Shown here: positions 52,441 to 64,000 of the stretch, one piece after another
Layout: every line of letters starts with the position of its first letter
How positions within the stretch are numbered: position 1 is the stretch's first letter
Source of the DNA: Candidatus Krumholzibacteriota bacterium
Lineage (GTDB): Bacteria > Krumholzibacteriota > Krumholzibacteriia > JAJRXK01
Reading direction: 5' to 3'
Length of the DNA stretch: 64,000 nucleotides
NCBI GenBank assembly: GCA_024276305.1
Contig: JAJRXK010000093.1
Location: 1-64,000, forward strand
Position numbers and translations under genes: made by a program
Notes under the pieces: model-generated
Database searches by the model: none
Seen by the model: the letters and a program-made list of their open reading frames with translations, nothing else
What the model was told of the DNA's origin: nothing

Positions 52441-52596
52441 GTCGATCCTTTCGTAGTGAGGACAGTATAGGCGATACGTGACCATTCCGCGTCCGTGACC
52501 GCAGAACGCCCTGATCCCGAAGACTCCCGATCGGGAGTTCGCGGTCCAGATCCGAAGAATGCCATAGCATATTGTTCCACTGCAGAAGGGCAGGTC

Positions 52597-55500
52597 ATGA
52601 TTCGTCCCATCCTCACCCGCTGGACCATTCTGGGCATCGTCCTTCTTCTCTCGACTCCGGCCCACTCCATCCCCATCTCCGCATCACCGATCCGAGCGGA
52701 GACGAGCTCGGCCCGCACCTGGATCAGCAGCCGCCACGAGACCGGCGACGCTTCGGCCAAGGCCGCCGTCGACTCCTTCTACCTCTACGGCGGGCCGGGC
52801 ACCCTCCAGGGAAAGTTCTTCGAAGCCCTCAACTCCTCTCCCACTAGCTGGACCGGTGTCGATCGCACCGACCAGCCGATCTACTGGCAGGTCTCGACCT
52901 TCAACGCCGAGACCCTCGCGAACCACGGAGCGGGCAACCATGCCGCCTGGTGCGGTCAGAGCGCAGCCCAGCAGCCAGGTTGGGCCACAGGACCGGGCTA
53001 CGGCAAGCGTTGGAATCAGACTCTCCTCTTCGAGAGTCCCGCCCTCGCCGATCCCAGTGCGGGACAGACCGTGAGCCTGGACTTCGTATTCCACTACGAC
53101 ACCGAAACGGCCTACGATTTCTTCAGCGTCGAAAGGGATTCCTCGGGAAGCTGGGTCGAAGCCATGTCCATCTCGGGGACCGACCGCGATGCTTCCGACG
53201 CATTCCCTGCGCCCGGCGTCCGCTATTCTGCGGTGGCCCAGCGCGCGCTGACCTATGCCGGGGGAGACTACGGAGGAAGTGGAGGCGACCGAATCCGACT
53301 ACGACTGCGGTTCCGCTCTGACTTCGGCTACGATGACGAAGATGGTCGATTCGATTCGGTGGCCGGCGCGGTCCAGGTCGACGACATCGCGGTGACCTGG
53401 TCCGATGGGAGCGACTTCGAGGACTTCGAGAGCGGAGACTTCTCCGGATCGTGGCGTCCCCAGAAGCCTCCCTTTGTCGGCGATTTCTCCCGGATGTGGC
53501 CCCAGTTCCGGGACTACGGCCTCGATCTCTGCCATGAGAACCTGAGCTCGGTGGTGGGCTTCGTCGATGCGGGGCAGGTGGTCCGCAATGCCGCCAGCGC
53601 TGCGGACATTCCCGGCTATCCCACGTCTACCGGGGGTGAGACCTCCGCCACCGCCGCTTCCACCCTCGGAGGCTGGGTGGTCAATTACCACGGTGGGTTG
53701 AGCCAAGTCCTCGGCCCTCGGAACGAACTCCCGCTCTCGAACGAAGTCTGGAGTCCGGAGATTCTCTGGGATCTCCCCGGTACCGCCGACGACGGCCCGG
53801 AGGTTTCGGGAGTCCTTCTTCGTTTTTCGGTATGGGCCGATCTTCCCTTCGAGAACGGTCTCTTCTACCTCTGGCATATACGAACATCGCCCGATGGCCT
53901 GAACTGGTCCCCGTGGGTCCACGACTGGACGATCTACTTCGACGAGGGATTCCCCCACTGGGTCTCCCGCGAATTCGATGTCTCGGCGATGCTTTCCCGG
54001 CCCTTCGAGCGAATCCAAGTCGCGCTGGGAGTCATCGAATCCGTCTTCGGTGGAACCATCGGTGACGACGCCACCGCCTCTCCGCTCTTCGACAACGTGG
54101 CGCTCCTGAAGTATCGCCTCCAAGGCCCGGTGATCTCCGCCCGAGAGAGGCACCTCGCCAACGACGGATTCCCTGTCTCGGGAGAGATCGACGTGAGCAC
54201 CACGGCCGCGCGCGACGCCTTGGATATCCCCTTCGACATGGCGGCGAATGTCGCCTCTGGGAATTCTCCGGTGGATGCCGGCGATTCCGTCGTCGTGAAG
54301 GCCGTGGCCCAGATTCCCGGCACCACGCTGGCTGACCTGCGGATGGTCTGGATCCTCGACCGCAATCCTCTCTTCGAAGATGCGATTCGGACGCCCCCCT
54401 CGAGGTCCGTCGACCAGAATGTCGTCCTCGGACCCACGCAGTGGTCGGGAGAGGTCCTCGCCTCCCCCTCCGCCGCATCGCAACCCGACGAATCCAGCTT
54501 CGACCTCCCCGATCAGGATTTCTTGTACCCCGGAGATGTCCTGCGCTACTACTTCCGAGCCACCGACAGCGATGGACGCGTGTCCACCCTTCCTTCGAAC
54601 ACAACCGGCTTCTCGGACGAAAAGGGCTACGATCGTGTGTTCACGATCCACGGCCTGCCTTCGATCACCGATGCCGCCGGAGCTCAACCTTCGATCCTGG
54701 CGTGGATCGACTTCGGACATCGCGAAGGTGAAGCCGAAGTCCTCACCGCATTTCGGCAACTCGACCTCGTCGAAGGCCGGGACATCGACCTCTACACCAC
54801 CATGGCCGCAGAGAGGAGACTCTCGAATGGGTTGGGATCTGCCGGAGTCCACGGCGCGACCGCGGCCCAGCTCGACGGCTACACCACCCTCCTCTACTTC
54901 GCCGGAGAATTGGACGGCACCATTCTTGGAGACGGTGGACATTCCTTCCCCTACACCAGGCCCGATGACATCGGACTTCTCACCGCCTGGCGAGACCTGG
55001 CCGGGGCACGCAGCATCCTCTTCTTCGGAGACAATGTGTCGAGTTCGCTTTCCGCGCCGGGAAGTGCGGGCTCGGCCTTTCTCGAGACCGTGATGGGAGT
55101 CGAGGTCGTCGGTCAAGACATCACCCGTGCCATCAACGGATGGAGAATCCCCGACGTGCGACCGGTGGTCGCGACCAGTTTTTCCACGAACTTCCTTCTG
55201 ACCGGAAACTGCCCCGACAACAACAGTTTCGATGTGATCAAGCCCCTCGTGGGCTCGGTGACCGGGCATCGATTCTGGGATCCCAGGACGAACTCCGCCT
55301 ATCTCACCAACAACATCTCTGCTTCGGTGATCTACGACACCTCGAGTTCATGGCCCGCCCTGGACCGCAAGCTCTCCATCACCTTCCCCTTCAGTTTCCG
55401 CAGCGTTCAGCTCCCCATGCGCAAGGCCGCAGTCAATGCCTCCCCCCGAGTCTGGCTCCTGAGCGAGGCGCTCGACTTCGCGGGGATCTGCTGTCTGTGG

Positions 55501-55806
55501 GGAAGTCCCGACCCAGTGGCCACGCCCGCTGCTCCCGAACGCAGTCTCGCCATCTTCCCCAATCCCTTCAACCCCGTCACGACCCTTCGATTCACCGGCC
55601 TGCGAACGGGAGACGAGGGATTCGTGCGCATCTACAACCCCCGCGGACAACTCGTGGTCACGCTCCACCAGGGAACGTTCACCCATTCGACCTTCCTGTG
55701 GGATGGAACCAATGCCGAAGGACGCAGTGTGGCCAGCGGGATCTACATGGTCGAGGCACAGGCCGGGGACTTCCACCAGATCACCAAAATCGCATTGCTG
55801 AAATGA
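52597..55806 (+). CDS. Large secreted protein with FlgD-like/NPFNP C-terminal sorting-type domain
   Basis: Signal peptide; C-terminus IFPNPFNPVTTLRFTG...VRIYNPRGQLVVTLHQG...SVASGIYMVEAQAGDFHQITKIALLK. Confidence 0.75.
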   Translation: MIRPILTRWTILGIVLLLSTPAHSIPISASPIRAETSSARTWISSRHETGDASAKAAVDSFYLYGGPGTLQGKFFEALNSSPTSWTGVDRTDQPIYWQVSTFNAETLANHGAGNHAAWCGQSAAQQPGWATGPGYGKRWNQTLLFESPALADPSAGQTVSLDFVFHYDTETAYDFFSVERDSSGSWVEAMSISGTDRDASDAFPAPGVRYSAVAQRALTYAGGDYGGSGGDRIRLRLRFRSDFGYDDEDGRFDSVAGAVQVDDIAVTWSDGSDFEDFESGDFSGSWRPQKPPFVGDFSRMWPQFRDYGLDLCHENLSSVVGFVDAGQVVRNAASAADIPGYPTSTGGETSATAASTLGGWVVNYHGGLSQVLGPRNELPLSNEVWSPEILWDLPGTADDGPEVSGVLLRFSVWADLPFENGLFYLWHIRTSPDGLNWSPWVHDWTIYFDEGFPHWVSREFDVSAMLSRPFERIQVALGVIESVFGGTIGDDATASPLFDNVALLKYRLQGPVISARERHLANDGFPVSGEIDVSTTAARDALDIPFDMAANVASGNSPVDAGDSVVVKAVAQIPGTTLADLRMVWILDRNPLFEDAIRTPPSRSVDQNVVLGPTQWSGEVLASPSAASQPDESSFDLPDQDFLYPGDVLRYYFRATDSDGRVSTLPSNTTGFSDEKGYDRVFTIHGLPSITDAAGAQPSILAWIDFGHREGEAEVLTAFRQLDLVEGRDIDLYTTMAAERRLSNGLGSAGVHGATAAQLDGYTTLLYFAGELDGTILGDGGHSFPYTRPDDIGLLTAWRDLAGARSILFFGDNVSSSLSAPGSAGSAFLETVMGVEVVGQDITRAINGWRIPDVRPVVATSFSTNFLLTGNCPDNNSFDVIKPLVGSVTGHRFWDPRTNSAYLTNNISASVIYDTSSSWPALDRKLSITFPFSFRSVQLPMRKAAVNASPRVWLLSEALDFAGICCLWGSPDPVATPAAPERSLAIFPNPFNPVTTLRFTGLRTGDEGFVRIYNPRGQLVVTLHQGTFTHSTFLWDGTNAEGRSVASGIYMVEAQAGDFHQITKIALLK

Positions 55807-58542: not shown

Positions 58543-59265
58543 ATGTGGAAGACCGCGACCCTGCGCCGCCTGCACCGCCGCCTGGGCCTGTTCATCGGCA
58601 TTCAGGTACTGCTGTGGGTCTCCACCGGAATCTACTTCGCGTGGACCGACATCGATGAGATTCACGGGGACCATTTGCGCGGTCCCGCCTCCCAAATCGA
58701 CTTCGATGAGAACTGGATCTCTCCCTCACGGGCCGCCACGACCCTCGGGCCGGCCTATCGCAATCTGGCCGGCCTCGAACTCGTGCGAATCGCGGGATCT
58801 ACCTTCTACCAGCTCCATTCGGCCCAGGAGCCCGGCCGGATGGCTTTGGTCGATGTGCACACCGGCGTCGTGCGCCCTCCCCTCGACCGCAACGAGGCCA
58901 TGGACCTCGCCCGGGAACACTTCGTCCCCGACGGCCGCATCGTGAACGCGGTCCTTCTCGAGAGCGCCGATGTGGGCGCGCACCACGAATACCGAGGCGG
59001 ATCACTTCCCGCCTGGAGAGTCGAATTCGATCATCCTTCCAAAGTGCATGTCTACGTGAGTGCCGAAGGTGGCGAGGTCACCAAGTTTCGGACCCGCAAA
59101 TGGCGTATCTTCGACTTTCTCTGGATGCTGCACACCATGGACTACCTGGGGCGCGACGACATCAACAACCCCCTGTTGCGCAGCGCTTCACTTCTGGCTC
59201 TGCTGTTGGTGATCACGGGATTCTGGTTGTGGCGCAGGACTCACCGTCCCCGATCTCGGGGCTGA
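58543..59265 (+). CDS. PepSY domain membrane protein
   Basis: LRRLHRRLGLFIGIQVLLWVSTGIYFAW...AWRVEFDHPSKVHVYVSAEGGEVTKFRTRKWRIFDFLWMLHTMDY. Confidence 0.85.
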   Translation: MWKTATLRRLHRRLGLFIGIQVLLWVSTGIYFAWTDIDEIHGDHLRGPASQIDFDENWISPSRAATTLGPAYRNLAGLELVRIAGSTFYQLHSAQEPGRMALVDVHTGVVRPPLDRNEAMDLAREHFVPDGRIVNAVLLESADVGAHHEYRGGSLPAWRVEFDHPSKVHVYVSAEGGEVTKFRTRKWRIFDFLWMLHTMDYLGRDDINNPLLRSASLLALLLVITGFWLWRRTHRPRSRG

Positions 59266-60032
59266 TCTTCGAGTTTCCGCAGAAAGAGCCTCACCGCCGA
59301 CCAGGTCGAATCCACCTTGGCTTCGACCCGCGACTCCACCAACATCGACGCACCGTGGACCGCGGGGTTGGCCACGAAGACTTGGTGACCCTGCTGACGA
59401 AAGAGCCGCATTTGGCGCTTCACCGCGTCGTATCGCATCTCCTGCTGAGGTCGGGCGACGAAGACCGGTACCTCGATCGCTCCGGAGAGTTCTTCTCCGC
59501 TGCACTTGGTCAACGGCCCCCCGGTCGCTGGCGAGAAGGAGAGCACGCCAGCTAGCATCGGAGGCCGAGCGGCCGCCAAGCGCAGCACCAGGGCTGCACT
59601 ATAGCTGCTGCCCACGATCACCAGCGGCCGATGCGGGCGAAGGGCATGCACATAGGCGTAGGCCGCCTCGAGGTCGGGATAAGCCTCGCAGTATCCCGAC
59701 GACACTCCCAACTGCTCGACCGTTTGATTGATGCCACCGAATTGCCGTCCTCCGCTGCGCTGATCCACCACGAAGACCTCGTAGCCCTCTCGATTGAGGT
59801 GGTGTGCGATGGGAGCGTATTCGCCTCGCCCATCTCCACGAGCCTGGTGGAAACAGAGGATCAATTCTTGGTGCCGAAGTTGGACCGGCGAGTAGAGATA
59901 GCCAAAGAGTTGGACCCCGTCGCCCGCCGTGAATCGGTGTTCCTGAGGAGAATCCGCAGTGTCGGCCAGGGCCGGGCCCGCGAGGACCGCAATCCAGAGG
60001 GGCCAGAGCCAGACTTGGGGAGTGCGGCCCAT
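59241..60032 (-). CDS. Secreted alpha/beta hydrolase
   Basis: Signal peptide; LILCFHQARGDGRGEYAPIAHHLNREGYEVFVVDQRSGG...LVIVGSSYSAALVLRLAA. Confidence 0.8.
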   Translation of the reverse strand: MGRTPQVWLWPLWIAVLAGPALADTADSPQEHRFTAGDGVQLFGYLYSPVQLRHQELILCFHQARGDGRGEYAPIAHHLNREGYEVFVVDQRSGGRQFGGINQTVEQLGVSSGYCEAYPDLEAAYAYVHALRPHRPLVIVGSSYSAALVLRLAAARPPMLAGVLSFSPATGGPLTKCSGEELSGAIEVPVFVARPQQEMRYDAVKRQMRLFRQQGHQVFVANPAVHGASMLVESRVEAKVDSTWSAVRLFLRKLEDQPRDRGR

Positions 60033-61282
60033 CACCCTCCCATCATGGGAGCCAGAAACAGCTGCGTCCCATTCGAGTCGAAGTCGATGCGAGCCGTGCC
60101 ATTCTGGAAGGGGCGCTCGTAGCGAACTCCTCCTCCCGGCAAGTCCAGACGCTGGAGGGCACCGGTCGGCATGCCCAAATCGACCCCGACCGGGTCGCGT
60201 CCCCAGTAGTCGCCCCAACGGCTGCTCCGGTTCACGTAGGGAAGACCCGTGAGCAGACTCGCGACCCTCCGGAAACGGACGTCCCCCACTCGGAAGGGGG
60301 CCTCCGACTCCAGCAAACTCCAGATCCTGCCGCGGCGGGGAGTGAGGCGATTCCGAGAGTGGTCGATGGCCATCTCCAGACCGAAGAGATCGGTGTAACC
60401 CCAAACCGTCCGCGGGAAATGCTGATAGACGATGCCCGCCATGAGTCCTGCCGCCTCTTCATCTCGGATTCCCAAGTCGCCGTTTGCCACCTGGACCAGG
60501 CCCGGTCCGAAGCGTCCTTGGAGTTCACGCAGGAGTTCGCGCTGCCATTGCCGCCAAATCGCGATGTCATCGGGGTCGGACTGTGCCCCCACTCCGTCGT
60601 GGTCGAGGTCCACATCTTCCGTCGTCCCCGCGACCGGTCCATCGGGATAGAGCCAGGGAGAAGTGGACATGTACTCGTGGTAGAAGCCGTCGATCGCCCC
60701 AGGGTACTTCTGGGCATAACGTGCGATCATGTTCACATGTTCGACCAGCAGCTCCCGGCTCATCGAAGTGCCGCCATCGGTGGGATCGATCATCTGCGAC
60801 TGAGACCACATCATCGCCGGTTCTCCGGCCAAGGTCTCCAGCAGATGAGGAGCCCAGAGATCTCCCTGCTCCGCCGCGAAGGGGAAGAGAGCTCGGACTT
60901 CTGGATCGTCCCAGGCCTGGTGTCGAGCCAGAACTTGATGCAGGCCCAGCACGATGACATCGGGGTTGAGGCGACGAATCCGGGCGATGTTCGCCGCGCC
61001 ATCGTCGGTGAAGATCGCGGTCAGCGACAATACGATCACATCAAAACTCGCCATGTCCTCGATGTGCTCGGCCATGAAGTCGTTGCGAAGAATATTGCTG
61101 CTTCGGTCTTCATAGGCTTGGGAGGGGAGATCCGGTGGCGAGGGCTCGAAGGTCGGAACCTGCGGCGCAGGGACGATCTCCAGAGGCGGATCATCCACCG
61201 GCTGGGTCGTGCAACCCATCGCCGTCACCGCGACGAGGACCAGGATCGCCAGGGGGCACTTCGTGACCGAGTGACTCTGCAT
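60032..61282 (-). CDS. Lipoprotein, putative glycoside-hydrolase-like TIM-barrel
   Basis: Lipobox AVTAMGCTTQ; NPDVIVLGLHQVL, GAIDGFYHEYMSTSPWLYPDG, DLDHDGVGAQSDPDDIAIWRQWQRELLRELQGRFG. Confidence 0.6.
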   Translation of the reverse strand: MQSHSVTKCPLAILVLVAVTAMGCTTQPVDDPPLEIVPAPQVPTFEPSPPDLPSQAYEDRSSNILRNDFMAEHIEDMASFDVIVLSLTAIFTDDGAANIARIRRLNPDVIVLGLHQVLARHQAWDDPEVRALFPFAAEQGDLWAPHLLETLAGEPAMMWSQSQMIDPTDGGTSMSRELLVEHVNMIARYAQKYPGAIDGFYHEYMSTSPWLYPDGPVAGTTEDVDLDHDGVGAQSDPDDIAIWRQWQRELLRELQGRFGPGLVQVANGDLGIRDEEAAGLMAGIVYQHFPRTVWGYTDLFGLEMAIDHSRNRLTPRRGRIWSLLESEAPFRVGDVRFRRVASLLTGLPYVNRSSRWGDYWGRDPVGVDLGMPTGALQRLDLPGGGVRYERPFQNGTARIDFDSNGTQLFLAPMMGG

Positions 61283-61822
61283 GGCGGTCTTCCTTCGTGG
61301 TCGCCGATCTGGGCATGATCGGGCGCGATGGGGAGCAACCTGGAATCAAGGAGCAATCGCCGAATCGGACTGCACGAATCGTTCCAGGGGACGGGGTGAG
61401 GACCCCTTCCCCCCGACTCTCGCAGGGCAAAGCATGCTTCCCCTGCACCCAGAATAGTCGGAAGAGGAGGCCGACGCGATCGGAGGCTGGATCCTGTTCG
61501 ACGACCGCCTGAGAATCAGTGCTCGTGAGCTTGTAGCCTAGGCAACCAGAGCATTGGCGGGCGGAGTCGAATTGCGCCACAGAACCACAGCGAACTCAAG
61601 TCGCCCCCGTCCTCTGATTCTGTTCGGTGTAGCCATACTCATAACCCTCTGGAGACTCGAGTCCCACGCGAACGCTGTGTGAATCCAGCTGTTGAACCAG
61701 GCCGCGTGACGCGCTAGCCTGACAATCCGCATCCGGAGACTGCGTCAGAGAATTGCCACAAGATCCGGGACGGGACCTCATTTTGTGATCTTACAATACT
61801 AGCAAGGATCCTGCAGCGCGGC

Positions 61823-64000
61823 ATGAGACTCTCACAACAGTTCTTCGAGTTCTTGGAAAACCGAAAGCTCTCTTGCCCCACCGGCAGGCCCCTCTACAGC
61901 TATCGATGTACGGCACGTGAGTTCGAGGAACTGCGCGTCGTCTTGCAGGGTGAACTTCCGCCGACGATCGGGTACCAGAACCACTTTTGGAGGGCTCTCT
62001 TTTGCCTGTACGTAGCGGAGTGGTGGAACAGAAATCATACGGGCGGTCCATGGAAATGGGGACATGCACTCGAATCGGTGGGTGCTGCCGTCCTTGCTCC
62101 GGGGGAAGCGGGTTACGTGTACCTCGGGGAAGTTGTCGTCAAAGGGCTCAAGGTTTGGCGGAGAAATGTTCTCACAAGTTCTTGCAGGAACCTTTACTTG
62201 TTCACCCTTGCTTGTGAGGGCGGGCTCCCGATGGGGATGGTCGGCGACACGACCCGCCAGTCCAGTCTCCGGACGTACTTTCGGAAGATCCTGGAAGTGA
62301 TTGACCGCGGTTCCGAGGAACAATTTCGAGAGTACACAGAACTGTTTGCATCGCACCTACCACGAAGTCTTCGTCAGGATGTCGTATACGAACTCAGCAC
62401 CAAGCTATTGATGGAAGTTCACAGACTCGCCCAGATCATTGACAACGACTCGGACCCAGTGGAGTGGCTCGACTCGAATCATCCTGATTGGAAAAACGCT
62501 CTTCCCTTGCGTTTGACCGAGAACACGGCCCGGTCATTCATGAGAGCGCTGCTGGGCCATGCGGTAGCTGTTCAGCGTAACTACGGCACTCGTATCCAAT
62601 GGCGGAGAAACCTCCGCCGATACGGCCGCGGATGGGTTCTCGAGGGTGGGTGGGCGCTACCGAGGCGAGTCACGGAGCCGCAGATGCGAGAGCTTTTCGC
62701 GGATCTCTTCAAAGCTGATCTGGGAACACCACACGGCCCGTCTCATTGCGAACTCGGTTCAGAGTCGCCTGATGGGGATTATGTAGGCCTTGCGATCGGC
62801 ATGCGCGTTGAACGAGATGGCGCTACGGTCTTCGACTTGGACCCAAAGCAGGGATATGCGCTAGTAACGAGAGGAGTGGGTGCGGCGAGGGGGCGTGCAC
62901 TCGTGGTCCGAACTGGGAGTATCAAGGCGATTGCCTGTGGCGCGGAAGGAACGACCGAACTGGGTCCTGGCCCGTGGGTATTCGAGGATGAAGACTCCGA
63001 GGGCGTTGCCAGGTACTTCGGAGAGGGTGTGTCGAAGATTGGAAGGAGCTCGATCCTGGTTGCGTGTACGGCAGACGCACTATGGGAGCCGGGGGAGGGT
63101 GCGTCTGTGGAAGAATGTGGCCGACTCGAAGGAATGGGACGGATCGTTTATCGGGTCTCAGGCAGTGCGCTCTTGCTGTGTACTCTTGGGAATGATCCAG
63201 AAGAACTGGTAGAGATTCGCTTTCGAACCGGAGCCGGCGGAGTGATTACTGGGGGGAGCTACTCCCTCACCGGGCCCATTCTACGCGGAACCGTGGGCAA
63301 AGCAACAATCTATGAAGGTGTACCAAAGCTACGATGGTACCCGTCGGATCCGGAACAGCCCCCCAGAACGATCGAGGCCACGGACATTCGCTGGCGTCCA
63401 CAACACCAAGACACCCGATCATGGTGCCGTGATCCGAGCTCGTGTCTTGGGGATGTCATTCTTCGCTACTCAGTGGATGGCGTGCCGGTCTATCAAGGGA
63501 AGATGTGCGTTGCGCCGCGACACGCGACCATCATCACTCGCCCATCTGCTTCGGAGGTTGGAAGTGTCGAGTTGAGGAATTGGCAGGCGTCTACCGTCAC
63601 CGCACACGCTGCCCTCGACTCATCCACAGAGATGTCAGCGCGCCTCGCGAACGGAACAGCAACTGTTTCGGTTCCAAGCAACACGGATCCGCAGCAACTG
63701 ATCTCGATCGACTGTCAATGGCCTGCGCTTTCCATAGCGGGCAGCAGCAAGACTCCGTCGGTGTTTCGTCGACGGGCGAAACTACAGGTCACACCCCCAG
63801 TACTCAGTGCACAGTTTCGGGCGAGCGACGGTCGAGCGATTCCGTGGGACTCGACCCTCACACTTGAGCAGCTCGCAATGGTCCGAGCTGATGTGTTCTT
63901 GCCTGGCCACCACGCGGACACCTTTGTTGAAGCCTCGTACCGCGGAAGCTCAAATGTGCCGACTGAGTGGCTGAGATGGAGAATCGAAATCGACCCCGAG
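61823..64000 (+). CDS. Partial large protein (726 codons, open at window end), STY4851/ECs_5259 (YjiT)-like
   Basis: Uninterrupted hand translation MRLSQQFFEFLENRKLSCPTGRPLYSYRCTAREFEELRVVLQGELPPTIGYQNHFWRALFCLYVAEWWNRNHTGGPWKWGHALESVGA... to ...EWLRWRIEIDPE, no stop before 64000. Confidence 0.7.
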   Translation, partial: MRLSQQFFEFLENRKLSCPTGRPLYSYRCTAREFEELRVVLQGELPPTIGYQNHFWRALFCLYVAEWWNRNHTGGPWKWGHALESVGAAVLAPGEAGYVYLGEVVVKGLKVWRRNVLTSSCRNLYLFTLACEGGLPMGMVGDTTRQSSLRTYFRKILEVIDRGSEEQFREYTELFASHLPRSLRQDVVYELSTKLLMEVHRLAQIIDNDSDPVEWLDSNHPDWKNALPLRLTENTARSFMRALLGHAVAVQRNYGTRIQWRRNLRRYGRGWVLEGGWALPRRVTEPQMRELFADLFKADLGTPHGPSHCELGSESPDGDYVGLAIGMRVERDGATVFDLDPKQGYALVTRGVGAARGRALVVRTGSIKAIACGAEGTTELGPGPWVFEDEDSEGVARYFGEGVSKIGRSSILVACTADALWEPGEGASVEECGRLEGMGRIVYRVSGSALLLCTLGNDPEELVEIRFRTGAGGVITGGSYSLTGPILRGTVGKATIYEGVPKLRWYPSDPEQPPRTIEATDIRWRPQHQDTRSWCRDPSSCLGDVILRYSVDGVPVYQGKMCVAPRHATIITRPSASEVGSVELRNWQASTVTAHAALDSSTEMSARLANGTATVSVPSNTDPQQLISIDCQWPALSIAGSSKTPSVFRRRAKLQVTPPVLSAQFRASDGRAIPWDSTLTLEQLAMVRADVFLPGHHADTFVEASYRGSSNVPTEWLRWRIEIDPE

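Follow-up and report, generated by a model that had tools for sequence, protein, structure and literature searches.

The long open reading frame at the right-hand end of the window, the whole 64,000-nucleotide stretch that was analysed (bases 1-64000 of contig C78), encodes a protein that, judging from its profile matches, is DruH of Druantia type III, and the locus is a further copy of a known type of two-gene anti-phage system, not a new kind of system. We consider it very likely that this Druantia III was acquired horizontally and that its druH gene has been cut by a mobile element, leaving a locus that is probably inactive as defence. Specifically, the frame would cover the first three quarters of druH, which encodes the sensor subunit in a druH-druE system, and a mobile element after approximately codon 832 would leave the C-terminal domain out of frame and cut off from druE. 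We infer that the repeat described below is an insertion sequence, that druE once lay downstream, as relatives with two-gene systems suggest for this genome as well, and that function has been lost.

From its ATG at 61823 on the + strand, the frame is open for 726 codons and reaches base 64000, exactly as the sequence-only reading had reported, and the motifs quoted in that reading are present. The contig comprises 64,460 bases and thus continues for 460 bases beyond the window. The frame terminates there at a TGA (codon 849, contig position 64367-64369), 91 bases short of the contig end, yielding a product of 848 residues; DruH-like sequence extends outside the window to approximately contig position 64318 (codon 832). 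On the strength of its profile scores, given below, the frame is a genuine gene rather than a chance frame. The features are collected in Table 1.

Table 1. Features of the druH locus and of the repeat ends in the assembly
Feature	Location	Strand	Basis or remark
druH 5′ part (Druantia type III, YjiT/STY4851 family)	61823..64000	+	Codons 1-726; NF038336, PADLOC DruH3, 9tud and own-profile matches
Best-conserved N-terminal DruH region, approximately codons 8-291, including the surface on which defence by E. coli DruH depends	61844..62695	+	Alignment with 9tud residues 15-293
Lowered-GC stretch, likely acquired DNA	61500..64000	.	Starts approximately 320 bases upstream of druH; GC 54-60% versus 60-68% upstream
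End type one	C61 end, C73 start, C78 end, C86 start		Behind YTAR sites
End type two	C37 start, C42 end, C54 end		Behind YTAR sites

A search of NCBIfam with the 726-residue protein returned a single match, NF038336 YjiT_fam (STY4851/ECs_5259), at 300.5 bits (2.5e-89), twice the curated cut-off of 150 bits; the same profile scored 316 bits in the genome search. The match covers profile positions 4-717 of 1,090, the C-terminal third being unmatched because the frame enters the repeat. In PADLOC, ten DruH3 models match, the best at 1.4e-43, and no other defence family does; a Pfam search of the 726-codon protein gave no match. A single-sequence search identified one credible relative in the PDB, DruH (9tud_A, 3.4e-31), and a profile that we made from 42 full-length DruH proteins scores 444 bits across codons 5-825. 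The profile checks proposed in the sequence-only reading thus uphold its assignment to the STY4851/ECs_5259 family, but what it called a poorly characterised family is DruH, which has a known partner, DruE, an experimental entry in the PDB (9tud), and a literature of its own.

Two papers from 2026 describe DruH of Druantia type III, a member of the YjiT family (PMC13192584, PMC13316683). The N-terminal region of E. coli DruH contains J-like and Ig-like folds, its C-terminal domain lies at a dimer interface with bound nucleotide, and its nuclease activity requires dimerisation; DruH has been proposed to sense infection, with the YprA-like helicase-nuclease DruE acting downstream of it (PMC13192584). 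In M. smegmatis, defence requires both DruH and DruE and is abolished by point mutations in the C-terminal part of DruH, and the system occurs across Actinobacteria (PMC13316683). The two papers disagree as to the existence of a stable DruH-DruE complex.

Comparison with E. coli DruH reveals that the N-terminal region is the best-conserved part of the protein. Of 14 positions in the N-terminal surface of E. coli DruH for which loss of function has been published (PMC13192584), 11 are identical here, including W88, W115, G136, and G137. Overall identity is only approximately 22% (164 of 743 aligned positions) and, unlike E. coli DruH, the window's frame lacks the C-terminal domain and has no DruE that could be found in the assembly. 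Identity to the aligned DruH relatives is 19-33%. A predicted structure (pLDDT 80, pTM 0.57) has helices up to approximately residue 253 and strands beyond, and as a model it supports a helical N-terminal region followed by a beta-rich middle region. A fold search with it returned Ig-like matches only, at a TM of approximately 0.1, and DruH was absent from its results.

Scanning GTDB genomes with a three-sequence alignment query revealed 45 related loci, where a single-protein query of GTDB genome contigs gave no match. In 38 of the 45, the gene that immediately follows druH on its strand encodes DruE; six of the other seven have a contig end within approximately 300 bases of the DruH frame, and the seventh (L068) holds a 115-residue DruH remnant. 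The partner of the window's druH, which the sequence-only reading took to be unknown, is therefore predictable as DruE, in line with that reading's expectation of a defence protein beside a large helicase. DruH-DruE pairs occur in Alpha-, Beta-, and Gammaproteobacteria, Bacteroidota, and Rhodothermota, six plasmid loci carry the same pair, and Myxococcota and Acidobacteriota yielded DruH that lies at a contig end or is reduced to a remnant; together with the actinobacterial systems, this distribution removes the novelty that had been attached to an occurrence outside enterobacteria. A search of phage sequences for DruH gave no match. An undescribed system whose partner is unknown, for which that reading had called the locus the best candidate, would agree with a partner not being seen in the assembly, but the protein matches DruH models only and the partner in relatives is DruE, and we regard this possibility as exceedingly slight.

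The nearest full-length relative found, from Proteobacteria bacterium Centralia_MAG_231, shares 30% identity over residues 7-836, but has 1,138 residues and is followed by a full-length DruE. The M. smegmatis system (MSMEG_1253-1254; PMC13316683) likewise places DruH outside Proteobacteria in a two-gene order, DruH then DruE, and differs, by its description and not by sequence comparison, in having an intact DruH of 1,132 residues with an overlapping DruE. Three further relatives (L034, L048, and L055) have damaged druH frames that, like the window's copy, end prematurely, with 64-307 bases left to the contig end.

The sequence-only reading had advised looking past base 64000 for a helicase or nuclease partner; the contig does continue there, but with a repeat and without DruE. 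The match to our DruH profile stops at codon 825, and the repeat starts at codon 833 (contig position 64320). The 141 bases from that position to the contig end recur without a mismatch at C61:11816-11956, and they also match C86:1-131 (100%) and C73:1-107 (99%). Each of the four copies lies at the end of a contig; the boundary is constant, the orientation relative to the flank does not vary, and the flanking sequences are unrelated. The druH frame is undamaged up to the repeat, and its stop codon falls 16 codons inside. On contig C73, a response-regulator-like gene also receives the tail ARTIHDSELTGQESA from the repeat, indicating that the tail is not part of DruH. The codons from approximately 833 on are, by these sequence matches, a multi-copy repeat outside DruH. 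A frameshift behind the early stop was also considered, since a peptide encoded downstream of the stop in a different frame, GIGLIDVSGFERTRRTRS..., resembled the start of the C-terminal domain by eye; the idea was dropped because the peptide has no profile score and the stretch is the repeat. A frameshift or stop just past base 64000 with housekeeping neighbours had been named in the sequence-only reading as a finding that would refute it, and this partly applies: a stop is present, in what is probably the end of a mobile element, and the upstream genes are non-defence genes.

The preserved frame, with its stop 16 codons into the repeat, could also be read as a naturally short, functional DruH without a C-terminal domain, its last 16 residues supplied by the repeat. 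We regard this as very improbable: 36 of the 38 DruH proteins adjoining DruE have 1,086-1,329 residues, the two exceptions being a frameshifted copy (L047) and a copy whose frame starts 21 bases from the contig start (L067); defence in M. smegmatis depends on C-terminal residues, and in E. coli such residues lie at the dimer interface; and the same tail terminates an unrelated gene. In the frameshifted copy, druH changes frame at approximately residue 640 and is followed by a full DruE.

Examination of the contig ends revealed two end types. In the first, the shared sequence opens with YTAG, followed by CCCGGACTATTCATGA. In the second, located near the ends of C37, C42, and C54, CCCGGATTATTCATGA or CCCGAATTATTCATGA is followed by a different sequence. 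The two end types agree at 15 of 16 terminal bases, CCCGGA[C/T]TATTCATGA, and the flanks are YTAR in all seven cases (CTAG, TTAG, CTAA, TTAA). The assembly yielded neither a complete copy of the element, nor a transposase belonging to it, nor a proven target duplication, and because a complete copy is absent, we only infer that the two end types probably represent the two ends of a single insertion-sequence-like element, whose target would be the four bases YTAR. The repeats at contig ends are thus probably a mobile element that breaks this assembly. The CTAG and the TTAG/CTAA flanks suggest that C73 with C37, and C61 with C54, may be the two sides of single insertions.

Transposases of the PF13701 (IS1380) type occur elsewhere in the genome. 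In particular, C14:1-1530 (L104) contains a complete-looking insertion sequence, with a 472-residue open frame matching PF13701 and inverted ends, CCCCAATTCGTCAAAAACTC, followed by CTAG.

Profile searches of the assembly for a further stretch of DruH found none, and a search with the DruH C-terminal domain alone, made without a positive control, also found none. Queries with a DruE protein and with a DruE profile did not find DruE in the assembly, returning only weak matches to helicase motifs. Since the assembly is a draft of 119 contigs, the C-terminal part and druE may be absent from the assembly rather than from the genome. One candidate for the missing end of druE was a 443-residue frame at the start of contig C87, which matches the DruE profile weakly. 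Its MZB and Peptidase S24 domains, its best PADLOC match, which is to DruE of type I, and its host-like GC make it more likely to be another YprA-like helicase. The frame (C87:2-1333, L095) would be the 3′ end of a YprA-like helicase gene, carrying an MrfA Zn-binding (MZB) domain and, after it, a region ending in a Peptidase S24-like domain; the 5′ part lies off the contig. The joining of an MZB helicase end to an S24 domain is, to our knowledge, unusual.

The main rival to an insertion that disabled the system is that most cells hold an intact, working Druantia III, and that the contig end represents a minority insertion or a wrong assembler path, with the rest of druH and druE unassembled or unbinned. 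The draft state of the assembly, the position of the break at a repeat, where assemblers choose paths, the retention of most key N-terminal positions, and the undamaged frame are in keeping with it. Against it, the boundary in druH is the same as in the three other contigs and has a YTAR target like theirs, as expected for a real insertion and not for a chance misjoin, and the searches recovered no contig carrying the remainder of druH or druE. We therefore consider an intact system unlikely, and prefer a druH gene cut by the element.

If the system were intact, DruH would use its N-terminal surface and Ig-like region to detect a structural protein made late in phage infection, would dimerise through its C-terminal domain, and would nick DNA, exposing single-stranded DNA onto which the helicase-nuclease DruE would load. 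The mechanism is taken from work in E. coli and M. smegmatis; at this locus, the N-terminal and middle regions of DruH are the parts seen. Because the element removes the C-terminal domain from the frame and separates druE, the 848-residue product is probably inactive. M. smegmatis DruH is toxic by itself and is neutralised by DruE (PMC13316683), so that loss of DruE would favour inactivation of DruH, an idea that the locus fits. We rate it as highly doubtful that the 848-residue protein, lacking the C-terminal domain and DruE, continues to be produced and serves an independent role, for example as a sensor or regulator coupled to another YprA-like helicase of the genome. A striking open frame thus resolves into a known family, and provides an example of a Druantia III apparently broken by a mobile element.

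Two plasmids carry Druantia III systems that are damaged by insertion sequences, as the window's copy probably is, but by different elements at different insertion points. In pMAQU02 of Marinobacter nauticus (L008:12403-18717), an IS1380-like transposase is located between two helicase pieces, and in pR4WN_1BD1 of Acinetobacter sp. (L009:8974-11194), an IS3 transposase is located beside a shortened, 1,071-base druH.

Composition, phyletic distribution, and phylogeny together support a horizontal acquisition of druH. The gene has 57% GC and a GC3 of 0.61 (0.607), against 63% GC and a GC3 of 0.75 in the comparison, and three neighbouring genes have GC3 values of 0.743-0.755. Among the 82 genomes of the phylum searched, this genome is the only one with DruH, so that the locus adds a divergent DruH from a phylum with no other among those genomes. 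In a quick tree, the protein forms a long branch, nearest to a proteobacterial MAG sequence with moderate support, and the tree does not single out a donor.

PADLOC gave no match for three upstream genes (59241-60404 on the - strand, 60032-61282 on the - strand, and 52495-55806 on the + strand), and a defence island is thus without support on the readable side. Relatives of a neighbouring gene occur in three genomes of the family; in a same-genus genome, the surroundings of its relative are unlike the window, and no empty site could be defined. Between the gene at 60032-61282 and druH, approximately 540 bases (61260-61822) hold no convincing gene, and GC begins to fall there; this segment is possibly the edge of the acquired DNA.
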